The position numbers and the translations under genes were made by a program. 20,674 nucleotides of DNA. Source: a virus. This document shows positions 6,809 to 16,119 of the stretch, piece after piece. The notes under the pieces were generated by a model that was not told where the DNA came from, did not search any database, and worked only from the letters and a program-made list of their open reading frames with translations. Positions within the stretch are counted from its first letter, which is position 1, and every line of letters starts with the position of its first letter. Location of the stretch: positions 1 to 20,674 of IMG/VR virus record IMGVR_UViG_3300030329_005532; one strand, 5' to 3'.

Positions 6809-7044
6809 TTGCGCACCGCTATGTATTCATAATCCAACTCATCATGACGCCTTTGAACTAACGTAACCACATTACTGGTGTAAGCTTTGTACACGTGCTT
6901 ACGTAAACTTTCCGAACGACGCATGTCTGTTGTTGGTGAAAGCTTCTGTAAATACGGCGCCATTATATACCCACGGTAATAGGTAATCTTACTACCTGGC
7001 TTTGATTGATTGAGCCATTCATCAAATTTTTTTATGCTTATCAT
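6805..7044 (-). CDS. Small conserved phage-type protein, 79 aa
   Basis: First gene of the minus operon. The pattern FDEWLNQSKPGSKITYYRGY ... LVQRRHDELDYEYIAVRK resembles a common small phage protein with a compact alpha/beta, possibly winged-helix, shape; no function is known to me. The start at ATG 7044 was chosen because an extended -10 promoter (7062-7057) lies only 12 bases upstream, inside the longer frame from 7125. The mRNA would then begin only a few bases before the ATG, so translation may be nearly leaderless; no Shine-Dalgarno is seen. Confidence 0.7.
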   Translation of the reverse strand: MISIKKFDEWLNQSKPGSKITYYRGYIMAPYLQKLSPTTDMRRSESLRKHVYKAYTSNVVTLVQRRHDELDYEYIAVRK

Positions 7045-7056
7045 AATTCTTGTTGG

Positions 7057-7085
7057 ATTATACCATAATAATAAGAACAAAACAA
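7057..7085 (-). promoter_or_regulatory. Extended -10 promoter of the minus operon
   Basis: TTGTTT (7085-7080), a 17-base spacer ending TGG, then a perfect TATAAT (7062-7057). The TGG-TATAAT context is an extended -10. Expected start is near 7050, about six bases before ATG 7044. Confidence 0.75.
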
Positions 7086-7178
7086 GGACAATATTCCCTT
7101 GTTTTCTGTCATTTTTAAAAGTCAAGTAAAATAATTATCTTGACACCGTTACAAACCGTTACTCAAAAACCTGTCAAG
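7079..7178. repeat. Inverted and direct repeats between divergent promoters
   Basis: AAAACAAGG (7079-7087) and CCTTGTTTT (7097-7105) form an inverted repeat overlapping the minus-strand -35. CTTGACA (7139-7145) and TGTCAAG (7172-7178) form a second inverted repeat enclosing a direct repeat ACCGTTAC (7145-7152, 7155-7162; 10-base period). This is the expected layout of operators controlling divergent transcription. Confidence 0.55.
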
Positions 7179-7188
7179 CATTTTTTTC

Positions 7189-7217
7189 TTGCACAAAACA
7201 AGAACATCGGGTATATC
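7189..7217 (+). promoter_or_regulatory. Sigma70-like promoter of the plus operon
   Basis: TTGCAC (7189-7194), 17 bases, TATATC (7212-7217). It is weaker than the divergent promoter but well placed; transcription would start near 7224, giving a leader of about 70 bases to ATG 7295. Confidence 0.5.
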
Positions 7218-7246
7218 TAAAGTTCTCAACTTCATTTCATCTCGGT

Positions 7247-7279
7247 GGACTTTAGCACTCATTCGTAGTGCTAAGGTCC
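7247..7279 (+). promoter_or_regulatory. Strong 5'-UTR hairpin
   Basis: Arms GGACTTTAGCACT (7247-7259) and AGTGCTAAGGTCC (7267-7279) pair over 13 positions with one G-U wobble around a seven-base loop CATTCGT. It ends six bases before the AAGGA ribosome site of the 7295 gene. With only a short T tract after it, a role in mRNA protection, protein binding or attenuation is more likely than full termination. Confidence 0.6.
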
Positions 7280-7294
7280 CATTTTAAGGACAGC

Positions 7295-7387
7295 ATGGCA
7301 CGTAGAATCAGAAATATCTGGTATAAAATTAAAAAATGGTTAGAATATCACCCTGAAAAAAGATATTTCAGGGGACCAAGTGATTAA
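7295..7387 (+). CDS. Basic micropeptide, 30 aa
   Basis: First gene of the plus operon. AAGGA lies five bases before ATG 7295. The product (ARRIRNIWYKIKKWLEYHPE plus a short tail) is strongly basic and would form an amphipathic helix with Trp/Tyr/Ile on one face. It overlaps the next gene by eight bases. Unknown function; membrane- or nucleic-acid-binding is possible. Confidence 0.55.
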   Translation: MARRIRNIWYKIKKWLEYHPEKRYFRGPSD

Positions 7388-7622
7388 AATATGGTTTTTA
7401 TTAATGTTAATATCCATGCCCAACCAACCTTCCATAAAATATCAAGGAATGATATACCCAACGGAAGAACAGTGCATGGAAGCACGTGCAGGATTTCACA
7501 ACGCTTACGAAAGTAAGACGAAGAAATACAAGGAATCAATTGTCGTAGACTCATTTTGTTTACCTTTCGATGCATTTCCGATAAAAGGAATGAAGTATAA
7601 TAATTCATCGTTGGGGACATAA
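7380..7622 (+). CDS. Small exported two-cysteine protein, 80 aa
   Basis: Starts at GTG 7380 with AGGGGA upstream, overlapping the previous gene. A short hydrophobic N-terminus (IKIWFLLMLIS) acts as signal peptide or anchor. The mature part has a Tyr-Pro-x2-Glu-x2-Cys-x-Glu-Ala-Arg motif and a second Cys in VVDSFCLPFDAFP, suggesting one disulfide after export. The layout is shared with the 102-residue protein at 10747-11055 and with many small secreted phage proteins. Its stop is immediately followed by the next ATG. Confidence 0.7.
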   Translation: MIKIWFLLMLISMPNQPSIKYQGMIYPTEEQCMEARAGFHNAYESKTKKYKESIVVDSFCLPFDAFPIKGMKYNNSSLGT

Positions 7623-8198
7623 ATGAGATTCTGGTTTAGAAATTTAGTAATACTTACAGTACTTATAATAATATCAGTATACGCTAAACCTCTTTTAGCA
7701 GCTGATACGAACACTGTCTCTTCGACGGTAGTGACGGATAAAAGCGTACCTACCGCAAATGCACCATCAGTAGTGGTCAATAATTCAGACATATGTAAGA
7801 CTGCGGCGTCAACTGCCGTACAAACCCAGGTTTTGGGAATTGCGTCGGGAATCACAATCACTGATGAAAATTGTGAAAGAATAAAACTATCAAGATCTTT
7901 ATATTCTATGGGCATGAAGGTGGCTGCAGTGTCAACATTATGTGCTGATCCACGTGTATTCGACGCCATGCATATGGCAGGGACATATTGTCCTTACATG
8001 GGTGCAATAGGAGAAGATGCAAAAAAAGGATGGACAGAGAACCCTGACATGGTACCGGAAGGATCATTAGTATTTAAGAAAATAGAAATTGAACAAAGAG
8101 AACAACAAACAACTGGATTAACGGATGGACAAAAACTTGCGAAATTTATTTTATTTGGTATGGCTATGCATTCTGGTATCGTGGCCTTCTTCCCTTAG
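7623..8198 (+). CDS. Exported cysteine-containing protein, 191 aa
   Basis: A clear signal peptide (basic MRFWFRN, hydrophobic core VILTVLIIISVYA, cleavage near KPLLAADT) precedes a Thr/Ser/Val-rich linker. The conserved-looking domain with four Cys follows: DICKTAAS, DENCERIKLSRSLYSMGMK, STLCADPRVFDAM and GTYCPYMG. The NCERxKLSRxLYxMGMKVAA block looks like one that recurs in marine phage proteins of unknown function, but I cannot verify this. The C-terminus ends in a hydrophobic stretch (LAKFILFGMAMHSGIVAFF) that may be a second membrane segment. The last 74 bases also encode the start of the next gene in another frame. Confidence 0.75.
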   Translation: MRFWFRNLVILTVLIIISVYAKPLLAADTNTVSSTVVTDKSVPTANAPSVVVNNSDICKTAASTAVQTQVLGIASGITITDENCERIKLSRSLYSMGMKVAAVSTLCADPRVFDAMHMAGTYCPYMGAIGEDAKKGWTENPDMVPEGSLVFKKIEIEQREQQTTGLTDGQKLAKFILFGMAMHSGIVAFFP

Positions 8199-9840
8199 AG
8201 CCGAGTGCCCTGTTACTTCAACCGGTTTATGTACTCCAGGCGTTGAAGAAACAATTGTCATAGATGAAGTAGAAACTATTGAATATGAGGCTGATGGCTA
8301 CACAGTCACAACAGAAACCACAACTACAACCACAACAGTAACAACAACGAACCCTGATTCAGGTGACATTTTAGATGGTGATAATGATTATGTTTCATCA
8401 TCTAAATATGAAGGTGATATGGATATTGATTGGGGTGGCCAAGGTCCTGCAAGCATGCCCTCAGGCAACAGCTGCTACAATCTTGGAGCAGATAAATGTG
8501 CACAAATAACAGGTAGTGGTAATTCAACATCAACAATGGGTGTCTCAGGAATGGGCACGACATTTATTAACACGATTGATATATCAGAACTGGACATAGA
8601 GAACGGAGGGAGAACAAATTACACAATTAAAGTAGATAAACGTGATGCACAAGATCGTATCTACATGCACATTACTGGACGTGATGGTAATACAAATATA
8701 TTTCAAGGCACGGACATCTTATCAGAGTCTGGTGTTGCAAGTGGATTTCAACAATACACAGGTGGATGGGATTTTGCGGGATCTATTACAAAAATAATTG
8801 TCGAGGTAGGTGGACGTGATATCAACTTGGCAATCGGACCGCTATTTGATGATGTACAAATAAACGTATTATACAACGTGGTTAATACAATAGTCACAGA
8901 ACATATACTTAATGTTGAAATGTGGGTGTCTTATGGTGGTAGTACAGAGACGGAAGTAATTGATATTGTTGAAAATATATTTGAGCACAATGACGTGGTG
9001 GATGCACCAGGTGAAGATATGTATTTTGAACCAGAATTTGATGAACCAAATATGGAAATGTCTTATGAAACTGTAGAAATGGAAATGGAATTTGAAATAG
9101 ACTTCGAGATGGATTTTGAAATGGACATGCCTGAAATGGAAATGGAAATGGCTACTATGGAATTTGAAATGGAATTAGAAATGGAAATGGAAATGGATTT
9201 CGACATGCCTGAAATGGATATGCCGGAGCCAGAGATGGAGATGGCAGAATTAGATATGGAGATGCCCGAACCAGAGATGGAAATGGATATGCCGGAACCA
9301 GAAATGGAACCCGAACCAGCTACTGAACCAGACGTAGAGGAATCAACGACTGAAGCAGAAGCTGAACCAGAGATGGAGGAAACAAATGATGAACCTGTTG
9401 AAGAAACTACTGAGGAGCCTGCAGAAGAAGTGGCAGAGGAGCCAGAACCTGAAGAAAGCGCATCAGAGGCTTCTGAGGATGAAGGAAGCGAAGACGATAT
9501 GGATAAACCAAAAGATAAGGCTGAGCCCAAGAAAGAAATAAAAAAGCAGCAACAAAAGGAGAAAGCTGCTAAAAAAATTGTGAAAAAAATGGGGGATAAA
9601 GGTAAATATGACTCAATAAATCAAACCAAAACCCTCATTGTTATGCAAGTATTAGGAAATACTAAGACTTTTTTTGAGAGCCAGCAGGCCCTAAACGACC
9701 GTGCTGGCTTCTTTACAGATTTGTCATTACCTGATACAACGATATCTGATAATAACGTTGCTGGTTATTTACTATTTGCTGGAAGCGAAGGATTAATGAA
9801 TGATATGATAATGTCACAATGGCAAACAATTTCGGAATAG
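8125..9840 (+). CDS. Exported acidic protein with alternating Met/Glu repeats, 571 aa
   Basis: ATG 8125 gives a good signal peptide (NLFYLVWLCILVSW, cleavage near SSLRA-EC), and this start costs a 74-base overlap with the previous gene. The order is: Thr/Glu-rich segment (about 27-75); beta-rich domain (about 130-275, for example INTIDISELDIENGG, TGRDGNTNIF, GPLFDDVQINVLYN); tract of alternating Met/Phe/Leu with Glu/Asp (about 306-396), becoming MPEPEME repeats; Pro/Glu/Ala region (to about 455); Lys-rich helix (about 460-490); compact C-terminal domain ending TISE. No family is recognised. It could be a virion, surface or envelope-spanning component. The Met/Glu tract is built from GAAATG units prone to length change. 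Confidence 0.85.
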   Translation: MDKNLRNLFYLVWLCILVSWPSSLRAECPVTSTGLCTPGVEETIVIDEVETIEYEADGYTVTTETTTTTTTVTTTNPDSGDILDGDNDYVSSSKYEGDMDIDWGGQGPASMPSGNSCYNLGADKCAQITGSGNSTSTMGVSGMGTTFINTIDISELDIENGGRTNYTIKVDKRDAQDRIYMHITGRDGNTNIFQGTDILSESGVASGFQQYTGGWDFAGSITKIIVEVGGRDINLAIGPLFDDVQINVLYNVVNTIVTEHILNVEMWVSYGGSTETEVIDIVENIFEHNDVVDAPGEDMYFEPEFDEPNMEMSYETVEMEMEFEIDFEMDFEMDMPEMEMEMATMEFEMELEMEMEMDFDMPEMDMPEPEMEMAELDMEMPEPEMEMDMPEPEMEPEPATEPDVEESTTEAEAEPEMEETNDEPVEETTEEPAEEVAEEPEPEESASEASEDEGSEDDMDKPKDKAEPKKEIKKQQQKEKAAKKIVKKMGDKGKYDSINQTKTLIVMQVLGNTKTFFESQQALNDRAGFFTDLSLPDTTISDNNVAGYLLFAGSEGLMNDMIMSQWQTISE

Positions 9841-10388
9841 CTATGGCAGAATTTGAATTTGGAGGAATGAAATTCAGGGGTGGTAAGATATTTGTGATTC
9901 TTACTGCACTAACCACAGCTGGTGGAGCACTATGGGGTGGCTTTGAATTTTATAAAGACTACCTCGATATGAAAGAGCAGATACAAACGTATGTGGCTCC
10001 GGATCTGTCTGAATTTGATAAGAACATTGCACTGACAAAAGAAGAAATGAGTAGTAAGGCCGAGCTCTTGCAAACAGAAATTGAAATGATAAGTGGTGAA
10101 ATGGAAATGATGATGGCAGAAATTAGATTAGTATCTGATGTAGCCAATGAACTTAAGAATGATTTACGTACAGATGTGCGCAGAGTTGAATCAATTGTTA
10201 ATGATGTTGAGCAACAAGTAAAAGAAGATTCTAGAGACAATGCAAAAGATTTAAAAGTTACTATTGATACACTTGAAGATGATATGAAAAAATTAGAGGA
10301 AAGAATTAAACAAGCACAAAAAGAATTAGAGGAAAAAATGGACAAAAGAATTAAAATGGCCCTAGAAAATCCTCTAGGAGCAATGTAA
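9819..10388 (+). CDS. Membrane-anchored coiled-coil protein, 189 aa
   Basis: One membrane helix near residues 22-45 (GGKIFVILTALTTAGGALWG) is followed by a long heptad-rich coiled coil from about 55 to 180 (ELKNDLRTDVRRVESIVNDV, LEERIKQAQKELEEKMDKRI). Overlaps the previous gene by 22 bases; an internal ATG at 9843 is an alternative start. It probably oligomerises at the membrane, perhaps with the similarly built 120-residue protein next to it. Function unknown; spanin-like or envelope-scaffold roles are guesses. Confidence 0.75.
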   Translation: MANNFGIAMAEFEFGGMKFRGGKIFVILTALTTAGGALWGGFEFYKDYLDMKEQIQTYVAPDLSEFDKNIALTKEEMSSKAELLQTEIEMISGEMEMMMAEIRLVSDVANELKNDLRTDVRRVESIVNDVEQQVKEDSRDNAKDLKVTIDTLEDDMKKLEERIKQAQKELEEKMDKRIKMALENPLGAM

Positions 10389-10750
10389 TGAAAATTTCAG
10401 ATAGCACCAACGTGCAAATGCCCCTTAAAACAGTTGTTAGCCTTATCACGCTGGTAGCCGTAGGAACGTGGGCGTACTTTGGCCTGATCCAGAGAATTAC
10501 AGAATTAGAAACTGCTAAACAATTAATGGAAGCAGATCTATTAAAAAAAGCTGAGCAAACGCCTGTGGATATGGAGCAGTCAATGATTTTGGAATGGCTT
10601 GGCACAAAAAATGCTACGATGGAAGCAGAACTTGAGTCGATGATGCATAATAAAGTGAATATCGAGTTCCTAAAAGAGCAGGTAACGAAAATGCAGAAGG
10701 ACGTGGAACTGCTCAAGGACAAAGTTAGAGCCAATGGAGAATCCCAATGA
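10388..10750 (+). CDS. Membrane-anchored coiled-coil protein, 120 aa
   Basis: Same design as its upstream neighbour: a membrane helix at about 13-36 (LKTVVSLITLVAVGTWAYFG), then a coiled coil (ITELETAKQLMEADLLKKAE and FLKEQVTKMQKDVELLKDKV). Its start shares one base with the previous stop (TAATG) and its end overlaps the next gene as ATGA. The pair may be ancient duplicates or partners. Confidence 0.75.
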   Translation: MKISDSTNVQMPLKTVVSLITLVAVGTWAYFGLIQRITELETAKQLMEADLLKKAEQTPVDMEQSMILEWLGTKNATMEAELESMMHNKVNIEFLKEQVTKMQKDVELLKDKVRANGESQ

Positions 10751-11055
10751 AGATTGTTGCCGTTATAATTTTATTTGTATTTGGAAACATGAATGATCAG
10801 GAAACGCAAATGACACAGTATATTCCTATGGCTAATGCTGGTGAATGTTTATACGAAAAAAGAATGCTAAAGAAAAATAAAGATTTTCCTAAAGACGCTT
10901 TTTGTGGTCCTGCTTATGTAGAAATAAGTGACGATGGAGAAGTGTTAAAATTATATAATGAAATACCAGAGGGTGCTAACTTAGTTAATGAAAAAATATC
11001 TAAGGAAGCAATGAAAGCTTGGACATTAAGAGCAAAAGAAAAATGGAACCAGTAA
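10747..11055 (+). CDS. Small exported two-cysteine protein, 102 aa
   Basis: Short signal-like N-terminus (KIVAVIILFVFG) followed by GECLYEKRMLKKNKDFPKDA and FCGP: two cysteines about 20 residues apart, then a charged C-terminal domain (VEISDDGEVLKLYNEIPEGA). The Cys-x-Glu...FC-x-P layout parallels the 80-residue protein that opens the operon, so the two may be distant paralogues bracketing the module. Confidence 0.7.
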   Translation: MKIVAVIILFVFGNMNDQETQMTQYIPMANAGECLYEKRMLKKNKDFPKDAFCGPAYVEISDDGEVLKLYNEIPEGANLVNEKISKEAMKAWTLRAKEKWNQ

Positions 11056-11108
11056 CTATAGCTTATATAATTTTTGGAACTCTTTGGGTAGTAGGAGTAC
11101 TATCTTAA
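11043..11108 (+). CDS. Membrane micropeptide, 21 aa
   Basis: Starts within the end of the previous gene (13-base overlap) and is one hydrophobic helix (MEPVTIAYIIFGTLWVVGVL plus Ser). Its TAA stop (11106-11108) overlaps the stop of the opposing sufE gene in a shared TTAA. Translation is plausible but unproven. Confidence 0.4.
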   Translation: MEPVTIAYIIFGTLWVVGVLS

Positions 11109-11506
11109 ACTTTTGCATAATATTTAATTTTTTTTAACATACTATTAACACCATTATTTCTACCTGGTGTTAACAATGTATCAAGATTCATTTTATTAAA
11201 CTCTTTTTGATCAAACTCATTAATGTCCTGGGGCCTAGATCCACTATACACATCCGCAATGATACAGACCATGCCTTTAGATATAAGTGCAGCTGAATCA
11301 GAACTAAAATAAATTTTATCTTCAACAAAATGCGGGACCAACCATGTTTGGCTCTGGCAACCTCGAACCTCAAACTCTCTGATTTTGAGCGAATCTTCCA
11401 TGGGTCTTGAATTTTTTCCAAAATCCATAATCCACATAAATTTATCTTGTGCATCTTCTATGTTACTTAGAATTTGAACGTATCTTTTTAATTTTTCTTT
11501 TATCAC
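11105..11506 (-). CDS. sufE: SufE-like sulfur-acceptor protein
   Basis: SufE receives persulfide sulfur from a cysteine desulfurase and passes it to Fe-S cluster assembly. The 133-residue protein has the family's signature throughout: IMDFGKNSRPM, EVRGCQSQTWL with the active-site Cys50 (equivalent to Cys51 of E. coli SufE), YFSSDSAALISKGM, IADVYSGSRP, and LDTLLTPGRNNGVNSMLKKI. The length is normal, so it is likely functional. The start is GTG 11506, inside the previous gene by 44 bases. It is the last gene of the long minus operon and would act with a host SufS in the infected cell. Fe-S genes are known auxiliary metabolic genes of marine phages. Confidence 0.9.
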   Translation of the reverse strand: MIKEKLKRYVQILSNIEDAQDKFMWIMDFGKNSRPMEDSLKIREFEVRGCQSQTWLVPHFVEDKIYFSSDSAALISKGMVCIIADVYSGSRPQDINEFDQKEFNKMNLDTLLTPGRNNGVNSMLKKIKYYAKV

Positions 11507-12713: not shown

Positions 12714-13776
12714 CCGCAAATTCTTCATCAAATGTTTCACCAAATAATGAAGCCTGCTTTTTAGGTTCTAAAAAATTTATTTCTCTAAGCGGTTTAGCTG
12801 ATTTATGTAAAAACAATTCAGCTTTAGTATTTTTTAAACCGTGGCGTATTTTATCATCAACTTCACATGCATCTTCAAAATCCTCTGGATAGTTCTTTTG
12901 CATGTTTTTCCATTGGTCATTATGATGATAAGGACACCCTATGCACGATGATTTACCAGGCATGGGGTGCTTTTTAATATCACGATACCACTGAAGACAA
13001 TCCATACGGGACATCTTCATTTCTATTAAAGGCCAACGTGATGTTAACCATGGTAGCCTTGCATTTTTCATACGCATGGCTTCATCCGTGGATATACCAA
13101 TCCATTGTTCTACAACTGTTCCTTTTTTTACACGGTGTCTAGGTTTTACCCCAAGTAATTCTCTCATTTTCTTTTGAATAGGGATAACTTTATAATCATG
13201 GGTGCACTGACGATATAACATTCCAACTCTTCCACCAGGTTGCGCAGCAAACAGTGGAGGGTTTGGTACGCGTCCGGCGAAAGATTTATGTTCCTCATTA
13301 GACCCTTTAATAGGGTTCGCTGCACGAATTAAATCTTCACGAAGATTACCTCGTTCTACAGTAATGATTGGACATATTGTTATTGCTTTTTTGAGGTATT
13401 CCACATGTTCATAAACGAACTTAGGTTCCCACCCCGTATCAGCAAAAATCATGTAATCTGGTTTATGTTTTGTTAATCCTTCTTGCGCCATGAGTGCCAA
13501 ACAGGATGACTGAACCCCTGCCCCGAGTGATAACACGCGCATGGTTGGTTCTTTTTTATTTCCTTCCTCATCCAAATATTCTGGCTCTTTTGTTGCTGCC
13601 ACTGCTGCCATATTATTGAGCTTTTTTCGGTCAATTTTCGTAGACATTTGCTCCAAAACTTTTCTTCTTTCATATTCCATCTGCTCCGCGTTAATAGCAA
13701 AATTATTCTTTTTATTATTAGCTCTTGCTTTGCCTTGGGCTCGGTACCCGGGTTTTCCTTCACTTTTAGTTGTCAT
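12685..13776 (-). CDS. PAPS-reductase/PP-loop family protein, 363 aa
   Basis: The adenine-nucleotide alpha-hydrolase core begins after a basic 78-residue extension. The PP-loop is RVLSLGAGVQSS (80-91), followed by YMIFADTGWEP, RQCTHDYKVIPI (Cys191), WIGISTDEAMR, MDCLQWYRD (Cys260) and SSCIGCPYHHNDQW (Cys278, Cys281). Such proteins activate a substrate by adenylation or reduce sulfo-nucleotides; the phage branch has no settled role. The four conserved-looking cysteines could hold an Fe-S cluster, as in several relatives. The N-terminal extension may be a separate basic segment, or translation could begin at Met79. It overlaps the endolysin gene by 11 bases. Confidence 0.83.
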   Translation of the reverse strand: MTTKSEGKPGYRAQGKARANNKKNNFAINAEQMEYERRKVLEQMSTKIDRKKLNNMAAVAATKEPEYLDEEGNKKEPTMRVLSLGAGVQSSCLALMAQEGLTKHKPDYMIFADTGWEPKFVYEHVEYLKKAITICPIITVERGNLREDLIRAANPIKGSNEEHKSFAGRVPNPPLFAAQPGGRVGMLYRQCTHDYKVIPIQKKMRELLGVKPRHRVKKGTVVEQWIGISTDEAMRMKNARLPWLTSRWPLIEMKMSRMDCLQWYRDIKKHPMPGKSSCIGCPYHHNDQWKNMQKNYPEDFEDACEVDDKIRHGLKNTKAELFLHKSAKPLREINFLEPKKQASLFGETFDEEFADECEGLCGV

Positions 13777-14278
13777 TTAGTTCTCTCAATGTTCTGATGA
13801 TTTTTTGCGTATAGTATACATCTTCTGCATAAATTGCAAGTGTCATCGCTAGTTTTTCTAAGTCTATTTCATCGCTGAAATGCTGGTTTAATCGTTCTTC
13901 CCTAAACTCATTATAATGATGATTGTTATTCAACAATTCAATATAGTAAGATATGGATTCACATTTAGTCTCAAAGATCCTAAGCCCCCAGCTCACATTA
14001 GGTTTATTTAAGGGCTTCATTTGGTCATCTGCTGAGTTAAATGTTCGAATCCCTAATAGATTATTGCCTTCAACAGCAAACCTGGATCGACCCCATTCGG
14101 ATTCGTGAATAGTTTGTGCTACAACTAAATTTACAGGGACTCTTTCATAGTCATCATACATAGAATTATGGTGCACGACACATGCACGAACCTCCTCTAT
14201 AAATTCCTCATTGTTTGTATACTCCATAATGTGACTAAAGGGTAAACAAACCATTAATGTTACACACAACCAGTTCAT
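13766..14278 (-). CDS. Bax/FlgJ-like glucosaminidase endolysin, 170 aa
   Basis: Peptidoglycan hydrolase. VPVNLVVAQTIHESEWGRSR (about 48-66) contains the catalytic Glu59 of the GH73/Bax-type glucosaminidase fold, followed by GNNLLGIRTFN and WGLRIFETKCESISYYIELL, all typical of the family. A hydrophobic N-terminus (NWLCVTLMVCLPF) serves as signal peptide or signal-anchor, so export may not need a holin. The start at ATG 14278, overlapping the polymerase stop as ATGA, is preferred over an upstream TTG. The position within the replication operon is unusual for a lysis gene. Confidence 0.85.
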   Translation of the reverse strand: MNWLCVTLMVCLPFSHIMEYTNNEEFIEEVRACVVHHNSMYDDYERVPVNLVVAQTIHESEWGRSRFAVEGNNLLGIRTFNSADDQMKPLNKPNVSWGLRIFETKCESISYYIELLNNNHHYNEFREERLNQHFSDEIDLEKLAMTLAIYAEDVYYTQKIIRTLRELNDN

Positions 14279-16119
14279 CCGCCCCAACTTTCTCCAAGAT
14301 CTACATCCACTTTGGAAGGTACTTCTAATTCAACACAAGTTTCCATAACTTCTTTAATATCCTTTCCTTGTTTTTCATTCTGAACAGAACAATCTAATTC
14401 ATCATGTACTTGAATAAGAGGAATGACACCTAAATTTTCATAAACATCAACCATAGCTTTCTTAGTCTGGTCTGCCGCTGATCCTTGAATCAGTCTGTTT
14501 AATGCCTTATAGGTTCCATACCTTTTTATCGCCTCCCCGTATTCTACCTTTGCTTGATTCAATGGTAAAGGTTTATGAACCCCCCATTGTGTTGGTTCCC
14601 ATAAATCAAACCTACACTTACGGCCAAGTAATGTACGAATAACACCTTTTGAATTAGCACGATTCATCACAGCTTCTAGCATTCCTTGCATAAAAGGAAC
14701 CTTTTTTCTAAAGTCTGTTAGCATTACCTTTGCTTCTTGGGGCTCGAGATCTAGTTCACGCGCTAATTTATTATAGCCCATGCCATACATCACACCTAGT
14801 CCAATAGTCTTCGCAAGGCGTCTCTCGCAGCCTGCCATGTCTGCTGTTTGTTGGTGAAAGTCGAGGTCTTTTTTATGATATGCTTCCTGTACTTCCCTAG
14901 CACCGGCCTGTTCGACGAGGCATGCCCAGTGTGTGAGCAGTCTTGGTTCTTGTTGAGAGTAGTCGGCTTTAAGCCAGTATTGACCTGCCTCCGGAATAAA
15001 CAGCTTTCTAATTTCTGTAGCAAACTGCCCTCTACTTGGAACTTGTTGTAAATTTGGGTGGTTATAACTAAACCTACCACTGACAGTGCCCCCACTATCA
15101 GAGCGTATTTGATTAATATGAGCATGAATCCTTCCCTCCTCTGTATAATTCATTAGTCCATGCAAGAATGTTCCTCTTAACTTATTTAATTCACGTGCTT
15201 GCATAATTAATCTTGGCAGTTCATGTGGGTGATCTGTCAAAAACATTTTAGTAAATGATGGTGCATTAGTTTTATCTGTTCTTTCATATGGTAAATTTAA
15301 AGAATCAAAAGCTTTCGCAATAGAAGCTGCTGCCCATATTTCTATATTAAGATTAGTAAGATCTTTAATACGTTTCATTAATTTCTTTTCTTTATTTCTA
15401 AATTTATCATTTAATGTAACACATTTTTCTTGATCAAAACGAACACCACGGCGTGTCATTTGAAATATTACATTAATTAACCTACACTCTACATCATATA
15501 CGGTAGTAAGATTATCCTTGACAATCTCCCAGGATAATTTCTCATGTAATTTATAAGTAAGATCTGCATCAGCTTCTGCATATTCACCAACAAACTCTGC
15601 TGGTAATTTATACATCTCTGATTTAGCATCGACACCAAATGCATCTGCGGCTTCCTTAAGTTTTGTTTCATTCTTAAATTCACCTAGATATTCATGAACA
15701 ATACTATTTAATGTATATGAATATCTATTCTCATCTATAAGCGCAGCAGCTACCATAGTATCGTGAACTCTACCTTTTATATTAATTCCTAATACACTAA
15801 GCCATCCAATATCATATTGTGCATTATGAAATATTTTTTCTATTTTTTCATTATCACAAATATTTTTTATATATTTAATAACTTTCTTTTTATCCATATT
15901 ACCACCACCATCGTGATCAATAGGATAGTAAGCTTTAAAAGAAGATGTAGCTATTGCAATACCAATAACCTTACCGCGTTTAGTAGGCCATCCTGGTCCA
16001 TGCTTAATTAAGTCCGTATCACATGTCTCTAAATCAATAGCCACGCGTCCTTCTATATGTGGAAATTCTGTGGGTGCTACCCAATGAGATGTTACTTGTT
16101 TAAAAAGATCCTGAGTCAC
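14275..16119 (-). CDS. polA: Family A DNA polymerase with 3'-5' exonuclease
   Basis: Replicative polymerase of T7/pelagiphage type, 614 aa from GTG 16119 (GGGAGA upstream; earlier TTG codons are less likely). Exonuclease motifs are RVAIDLET (Exo I), FHNAQYDIGWL (Exo II) and YAEADADLTYKL (Exo III), all with their acidic residues. The polymerase has GGTVSGRFSYNHPNLQQVP, motif A WLKADYSQQEPRLLTHWA, motif B RRLAKTIGLGVMYGMG and motif C IQVHDELDC. There is no 5'-3' exonuclease domain. At the position of E. coli Phe762 the residue is Leu, a marker discussed for slow or temperate virioplankton phages. Overlaps its neighbours by 20 and 4 bases. Confidence 0.95.
   Translation of the reverse strand: MTQDLFKQVTSHWVAPTEFPHIEGRVAIDLETCDTDLIKHGPGWPTKRGKVIGIAIATSSFKAYYPIDHDGGGNMDKKKVIKYIKNICDNEKIEKIFHNAQYDIGWLSVLGINIKGRVHDTMVAAALIDENRYSYTLNSIVHEYLGEFKNETKLKEAADAFGVDAKSEMYKLPAEFVGEYAEADADLTYKLHEKLSWEIVKDNLTTVYDVECRLINVIFQMTRRGVRFDQEKCVTLNDKFRNKEKKLMKRIKDLTNLNIEIWAAASIAKAFDSLNLPYERTDKTNAPSFTKMFLTDHPHELPRLIMQARELNKLRGTFLHGLMNYTEEGRIHAHINQIRSDSGGTVSGRFSYNHPNLQQVPSRGQFATEIRKLFIPEAGQYWLKADYSQQEPRLLTHWACLVEQAGAREVQEAYHKKDLDFHQQTADMAGCERRLAKTIGLGVMYGMGYNKLARELDLEPQEAKVMLTDFRKKVPFMQGMLEAVMNRANSKGVIRTLLGRKCRFDLWEPTQWGVHKPLPLNQAKVEYGEAIKRYGTYKALNRLIQGSAADQTKKAMVDVYENLGVIPLIQVHDELDCSVQNEKQGKDIKEVMETCVELEVPSKVDVDLGESWGG

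Follow-up and report, generated by a model that had tools for sequence, protein, structure and literature searches.

A conserved set of predicted envelope proteins near lysis genes in marine phages, headed by an RNA leader

Positions 7295-11108 on the plus strand of a virus genome fragment (IMG/VR record IMGVR_UViG_3300030329_005532; 'the window' denotes the whole 20,674-base stretch) encode predicted envelope proteins as a set that is conserved, co-inherited and linked to lysis genes, with an RNA leader of its own at the head. In our judgement, it is about evenly balanced whether this module is an accessory lysis operon with which marine phages breach the host envelope. As the initial annotation had listed them, eight consecutive open reading frames (ORFs; g1 to g8) with short overlaps were confirmed here, and all but one of their products are predicted to be exported, membrane-anchored or a cationic peptide (export and signal sequences were judged from hydropathy, charge and cleavage-like sites; Table 1). 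The individual protein readings of that annotation also held: two two-cysteine proteins (g2 and g7), two membrane-anchored coiled coils (g5 and g6, each with one N-terminal transmembrane (TM) segment followed by coiled coil), a multi-cysteine exported protein (g3, with four Cys and a strongly hydrophobic stretch at its N-terminus) and a Met/Glu protein (g4, with 41 Met, 84 Glu and a net charge of -103, mostly in a linker at about residues 291-470). All eight genes are conserved in relatives, with nonsynonymous divergence (dN) well under synonymous divergence (dS) for g3 to g7 (dN 0.05-0.11 and dS 0.5-1.0 for g3 to g5 against same-clade relatives).

Two strictly ordered gene units

Compared across relatives, the 'eight-gene module' is really a stack: the leader RNA with g1 and g2; a core of g3, g4 and g5 (families A, B and C), which some loci lack; and an independently swapping g6-g7(-g8) unit. 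The order A-B-C was found at 108 of 108 testable loci (A present, at least 3.5 kb downstream) from 33 independent A lineages (separated below about 65% identity), where loci per search were the best-scoring 80, a choice that favours relatives. A long B gene directly followed A at all 108, and C was found by the first C profile at 105, with the remaining three (L091, L095 and L101) identified with a refined profile or directly from the sequence; reciprocally, A was present at 18 of the 18 C-seeded loci with room upstream. The g4 search returned 367 related IMG/VR loci and the g3 profile at least 594. Isolates with A-B-C belong to unrelated phage types (HTVC115P, HTVC023P, HTVC033P, HTVC202P, Baldr, the myovirus Mosig (Kyanoviridae) and the Roseobacter phages CRP-207 and CRP-810), and the core also occurs in a spring-water podovirus and in phage-like contigs of marine metagenome-assembled genomes (MAGs). 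Its hosts include SAR11 and Roseobacter, and probably others. The marine MAG contigs L101, L105 and L106/L108, which carry A-B-C and were binned to Gammaproteobacteria, Maricaulis and Porticoccaceae, are probably phage contigs that would extend the host range past SAR11.

Family A, aligned from 68 relatives, has the same layout across lineages (signal sequence, Ser/Thr/Asn-rich stretch and helical domain with four conserved Cys), and g3 matches PHROG_20531, a family of unknown function (3e-11). AlphaFold predicted a novel-looking helical domain with a beta-hairpin (mean predicted local distance difference test (pLDDT) score 81, core 89-96), for which there was no PDB match at E < 1; a PDB sequence search with the A and P5 (g6 family) profiles gave no matches. 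Sec-type N-termini were read in 34 of 38 A and 29 of 37 B sequences. These signal sequences, present across lineages, bear on the possibility that the products are built into the particle, as virion-associated or tail proteins. Several lineages do hold the module inside the structural cluster, between capsid and tail genes (L016 and HTVC023P), as that explanation would have it; against it stand the Sec-type signals on A and B, the single N-terminal TM segment on C and P5, and the fact that matches to virion and tail structural families were limited to coiled-coil composition, for g5. We regard it as highly improbable, and the virion decoration suggested by the initial annotation is likewise unlikely.

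Family B proteins share a signal sequence, a beta domain, an acidic linker of about 50-270 residues and a helical end. For g4, AlphaFold gave a confident jelly roll at about residues 76-252, a linker of ~180 residues, disordered at 300-469 in the model, and a moderately predicted helical end. The modelled jelly roll aligned with Fbs2 (Z 12.6, root-mean-square deviation 3.1, 151 aligned; VIA-align), the carbohydrate-binding module (CBM) family CBM16 (Z 11.7) and CBM4 and CBM61 (Z about 10), with a Foldseek E of 1.7e-4 to CBM4-2 and further matches to phage tailspike domains of sugar-binding type. The model thus points to a CBM-like fold, a match that does not show sugar binding, and some B homologues are annotated 'putative carbohydrate binding domain'.

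Such a domain on an exported protein keeps alive the host-surface remodelling proposed by the initial annotation, now the main rival: late in infection, B, as an exported lectin, would mask a glycan receptor or compete for it, blocking superinfection or the re-adsorption of progeny to debris, with A and C displaying or anchoring it. The annotation of some homologues agrees with this, as does an early note that assigned fibrinogen-like coiled coils and carbohydrate-binding proteins to host recognition and placed proteins with a 'putative carbohydrate binding domain' among the most variable phage genes of metaviromic islands (PMC3909814). In the clade to which the window belongs, the conservation of B is similar to that of A and C (85-90% identity in L010, L011, L076 and L066), and the hypervariability expected of a receptor-type protein was not seen there. 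CBM-like folds are, moreover, common, and surface remodelling does not predict linkage to endolysin, holin and spanin genes; we consider it unlikely overall.

The third core protein, C, ends in an NPL motif that is invariant in the family alignment. Matches of g5 to FlxA, prefoldin, SMC, ZorA and tape-measure families reflected coiled-coil composition only and were set aside; those to ZorA and similar proteins were confined to the coiled-coil region, with no match to a defence family. Genes annotated as lysozyme or putative lysozyme beside A-B in CRP-810 (gp51, L091:7165-7587) and CRP-207 (gp73, L095:3292-3873) were considered as endolysins and rejected; with a TM segment, coiled coil and terminal NPL, they are C homologues, and their labels are likely annotation errors. 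In HTVC027P (L006:6136-6989) and 023Pt (L003:8023-8865), another TM coiled coil and an exported Cys protein lie just before P5, possibly as an unrelated replacement of A-B-C.

The second unit pairs g6 (P5) with g7 (P6). P6 directly followed P5 at all 67 testable P5-seeded loci, and the g7 homologue at L108 has a clear signal peptide. In L011 and L076, where g3 to g5 are 85-90% identical to those of the window, g6 is only 37-39% identical, whereas it reaches about 80% in L015 and L016; this indicates that g6 has been exchanged independently of g3 to g5. At L108, a 174-residue protein encoded between P6 and A (L108:5128-5652), with an internal TM segment and a Cys-rich tail containing DCLKNKRE, like the CLKxKR motif of P6, is a possible extra module member.

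Table 1 Features of the module and the endolysin gene in the window
Feature	Position	Strand	Description
Structured 5' leader RNA	7222..7280	+	GTTCTCAACTTCATTTCATCTCGGTGGAC, stem, CATTCGT loop, stem, GTCCC; ends ~15 nucleotides 5' of the g1 start codon
g1	7295..7387	+	30-residue cationic (+6) Trp/Lys-rich peptide, MARRIRNIWYKIKKWLEYHPEKRYFRGPSD
g2 (P1)	7380..7622	+	GTG start; 80 residues; exactly two Cys; hydrophobic N-terminus
g3 (family A)	7623..8198	+	predicted signal sequence and four-Cys helical domain
g4 (family B)	8125..9840	+	start overlaps g3 by 74 nucleotides; predicted signal sequence, beta-hairpin, CBM-like jelly roll, acidic linker, helical C-terminal domain
g5 (family C)	9819..10388	+	N-terminal TM segment, long coiled coil, conserved C-terminal NPL motif
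g6 (P5, 'fibrinogen-like coiled coil')	10388..10750	+	N-terminal TM segment and coiled coil
g7 (P6)	10747..11055	+	small; exactly two Cys; just downstream of P5
g8	11043..11108	+	single-TM microprotein of 21 residues, 21-23 across loci (MEPVTIAYIIFGTLWVVGVLS)
Glucosaminidase-type endolysin	13766-14287	-	flanked by PolA and the PAPS-reductase-like gene; opposite strand to the module

Lysis genes around the module in relatives

In 21 of the 37 lineages (all seeds), an endolysin, holin or spanin gene lies within 1.5 kb of the module. Endolysin genes occurred at 0.072 per kb within 0-1 kb and 0.046 per kb at 1-2 kb; none lay between 2 and 4 kb, and between 4 and 6 kb the density was 0.007 per kb, with lineage counts of 13 to 2 (binomial P = 6e-4); this distance analysis used seeds only from phages without A-B-C, which avoids circularity. 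Around P5, endolysin density was 0.139 per kb and dropped to zero beyond 3 kb. Both units are thus found preferentially beside endolysin, holin or spanin genes.

The arrangements themselves vary. Lysozyme, i-spanin and o-spanin lipoprotein genes precede A, B and C at L164 and L145, and L170 is similar, with a putative holin after the lysozyme; neighbours of A in L164 and L170 match PHROG_812 (Rz-like spanin). Other orders are A, B, C, putative holin, i-spanin, o-spanin (L183); i-spanin, o-spanin, P5, P6, another exported gene, A, B, C (L108); lysozyme, a holin-like protein and, directly after it, a protein similar to P1, then A, B, C (L105); annotated lysozyme (amidase-like), holin-like gene, P1, A, B, C (HTVC033P); and A, B, C, M15 endolysin (HTVC023P). 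P5-P6 adjoins holin and/or endolysin genes in HTVC010P, HTVC019P, HTVC104P, HTVC027P and S35-C6, and follows the holin in HTVC010P, HTVC019P, HTVC104P and S35-C6. Holin assignments rest on size, position and the pattern of TM segments; one of them (L086) was confirmed by a PHROG match.

These neighbourhoods qualify the statement in the initial annotation that no known lysis or tail gene is recognised. The module's genes match no lysis family, as stated, and relatives place them in or beside endolysin-holin-spanin cassettes; the placement in a lysis cassette that was named there as evidence against its proposal thus holds in part, through the neighbours in relatives and not through the genes themselves. 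Adjacency to holins would also suit a role in lysis timing, in which a disulfide-bonded periplasmic A, together with C, regulates the holin in the manner of the T4 antiholin RI, with no rupture of the envelope. A periplasmic Cys protein with inner-membrane partners would fit such a role, which nonetheless leaves the size and lectin-like domain of B unexplained; similarity to RI-type antiholins was not found in PHROGs, Pfam or NCBIfam, and we think this explanation rather improbable.

An RNA leader and small proteins at the module ends

Upstream of g1, the divergent intergenic region at 7126-7294 of the window holds a strong hairpin (minimum free energy z -4.3; folding window 7205-7300), a feature that, like the lysis-gene neighbours, did not figure in the initial annotation. 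The 29 nucleotides upstream and the loop are nearly invariant among relatives, and the stem varies. A sequence-only pattern search of the viral collection found the leader in 82 viral stretches; in all 36 stretches that extend 2.5 kb or more downstream, it is followed on the same strand by P1, A-B-C and/or P5-P6, with A-B-C not found in half of the 36. Over 40 distinct stems, the outer positions paired in 88% of cases compared with 70% in shuffles (maximum 77%; the shuffles ignore relatedness), and every variable stem position showed 3-5 standard pair types, indicating covariation. Pairing was counted from the outer anchor, since the MAFFT alignment put stems of unequal length out of register. 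Rfam contained no match to the leader beyond chance snoRNA hits. Together with the 108 of 108, 18 of 18 and 67 of 67 counts above, the 36 of 36 for the leader strongly support what the initial annotation had called an undescribed, envelope-located and co-conserved gene set; in the open-access literature, we found no description of this operon.

Because the hairpin ends so close to the g1 start codon, translational control of the operon would be a natural reading of the sequence. A possible two-state switch would arise if GTCC in its 3' arm paired with the GGAC in TAAGGAC, the Shine-Dalgarno region of g1. A sigma-70 promoter scan was uninformative (10 matches compared with 18 in shuffles).

Behind 81 leader elements, the first ORFs comprised 55 distinct g1 homologues of the form RIRNIWYKFKKWLKYQPHKTYMRGK, with a median length of 28 residues, a median net charge of +8 and a Trp within the first 20 residues in all. 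As a short, strongly cationic peptide that appears amphipathic from its sequence alone, g1 is a candidate disruptin-like peptide or leader peptide. A second candidate family of cationic peptides comprises basic ORFs of 41-46 residues (MAK..F...RDKPKKR...KKYRGQGR type) that adjoin P5/P6 in many pelagiphages (L004:7575-7706, L005:6778-6906, L006:8287-8424, L002:7569-7706 and L009:7575-7700).

The P1 (g2) family profile matches proteins adjoining lysis genes in HTVC010P, HTVC104P and HTVC033P. Family links for g2 and g7 come from profiles only, as tblastn of each alone against phage records gave no matches, and the two were rejected as paralogues (profile comparison probability only 1.6%). At the other end, g8 is conserved right after g7 at about 28 loci, with dN < dS; this TM peptide, at 21-23 residues, is too short for a search against holin families.

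A possible accessory lysis operon and its relation to known systems

We infer envelope breaching from the predicted topology, the lysis neighbourhood, the cationic and TM peptides, and the absence of a recognised canonical spanin beside most P5-P6 loci (in a search seeded with one spanin family only). In the scheme that we envisage, a late transcript would be gated by the leader hairpin beside the g1 ribosome-binding site; C and P5 would sit in the inner membrane with their coiled coils in the periplasm, and A and B would be exported. B would work as a long, flexible and acidic tether: the carbohydrate-binding-like domain at one end might grip an envelope glycan (peptidoglycan or lipopolysaccharide) and the helical domain at the other might dock to C, bridging the envelope. 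With the cationic g1 and the TM peptide g8, the module would then help to weaken the outer and inner membranes at lysis, or time that step; it would be auxiliary where canonical spanins are present, and may do the spanin job in pelagiphages in which none is recognised. A bolder and doubtful proposal, which we offer tentatively, is that it represents a new class of trans-envelope phage machine, in which an inner-membrane coiled coil (C), a disulfide-bonded adaptor (A) and a lectin on a tether (B), preceded by their own previously unknown regulatory RNA and cationic micropeptide, open or control the cell envelope of streamlined marine bacteria as infection ends.

Several observations weigh against a lysis role. 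About 16 lineages have no recognised lysis gene within 1.5 kb; the profile detection of lysis genes is incomplete, and the wider lysis seed set was partly taken from module flanks. Canonical spanins coexist with A-B-C at 12 loci, where true i- and o-spanin genes adjoin the core, so that A-B-C was rejected as the spanin itself. Searches of PHROGs, Pfam and NCBIfam matched none of the module proteins to a known lysis family (and gave no spanin match for g2 to g7), and 7000-11500 contains no strict-lipobox ORF of at least 25 residues on either strand, hence no o-spanin lipoprotein in the module; lacking both a lipoprotein partner and a sequence match, the module, as judged from its sequences, is not a spanin by membership. 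A lysis-gene neighbourhood may also mark late non-lytic accessory genes, such as lambda bor.

The window's own recognised endolysin, a further point on that side, lies 2.7 kb off on the opposite strand. This Bax/FlgJ-like glucosaminidase has a hydrophobic N-terminus (MNWLCVTLMVCLPFSHI) and could be exported by itself. Around it, the minus strand carries replication and metabolism genes, among which the plus-strand block is isolated: SSB-like (single-stranded DNA-binding) protein, primase, UvrD-type helicase, PolA, PAPS (3'-phosphoadenosine-5'-phosphosulfate)-reductase-like protein, 2-oxoglutarate (2OG)-Fe(II) oxygenase and terminase small subunit. PolA is closest to that of a phage annotated to Gammaproteobacteria, followed by 023Pt and the pelagiphages HTVC023P and HTVC027P. 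As the window is a fragment, holin or spanin genes of this phage may be encoded elsewhere.

Few biological entities in the ocean are as abundant as SAR11 and its phages, and a lysis system, if that is what the module is, would bear directly on the release of fixed carbon from the ocean's dominant heterotrophs. What had been a row of 'hypothetical proteins' becomes a defined operon with strict order, a four-Cys A, a lectin-like B, an NPL-ended C, a cationic peptide and a covarying RNA leader. For one pelagiphage isolate, only a peptidase M15 has been named for lysis (PMC10504331), and we found in the open-access literature no account of how pelagiphages open the outer membrane and no dedicated study of their spanins.

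Among described phage proteins, a close counterpart is the 'fibrinogen-like coiled coil protein' of pelagiphages (PHROG_20984, of unknown function), of which g6 is a clear member (1e-35); the family is present in 45 phage records, nearly all of them pelagiphages of several genome types, and is here tied to P6, the leader RNA and lysis genes. In Pelagibacter phage HTVC115P, homologues of A, B, P5, P6 and C stand together in a single run (gp49-gp54), all annotated hypothetical; their order (A-B-P5-P6-basic peptide-C) differs from that in the window. Disruptins are cationic lysis peptides, such as gp28 of phage phiKT. Compared by description only, g1 resembles them in being short, strongly cationic, Trp-rich and within a lysis-linked operon; it is half their size, however, and lies directly behind a structured RNA leader, so that it could instead be a regulatory leader peptide. 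With two-component spanins (Rz/Rz1), the module shares a genomic neighbourhood, and C and P5 appear to share the i-spanin layout of N-terminal TM segment and periplasmic coiled coil, in a predicted orientation, to which the module adds an exported, lectin-like B and a four-Cys A.

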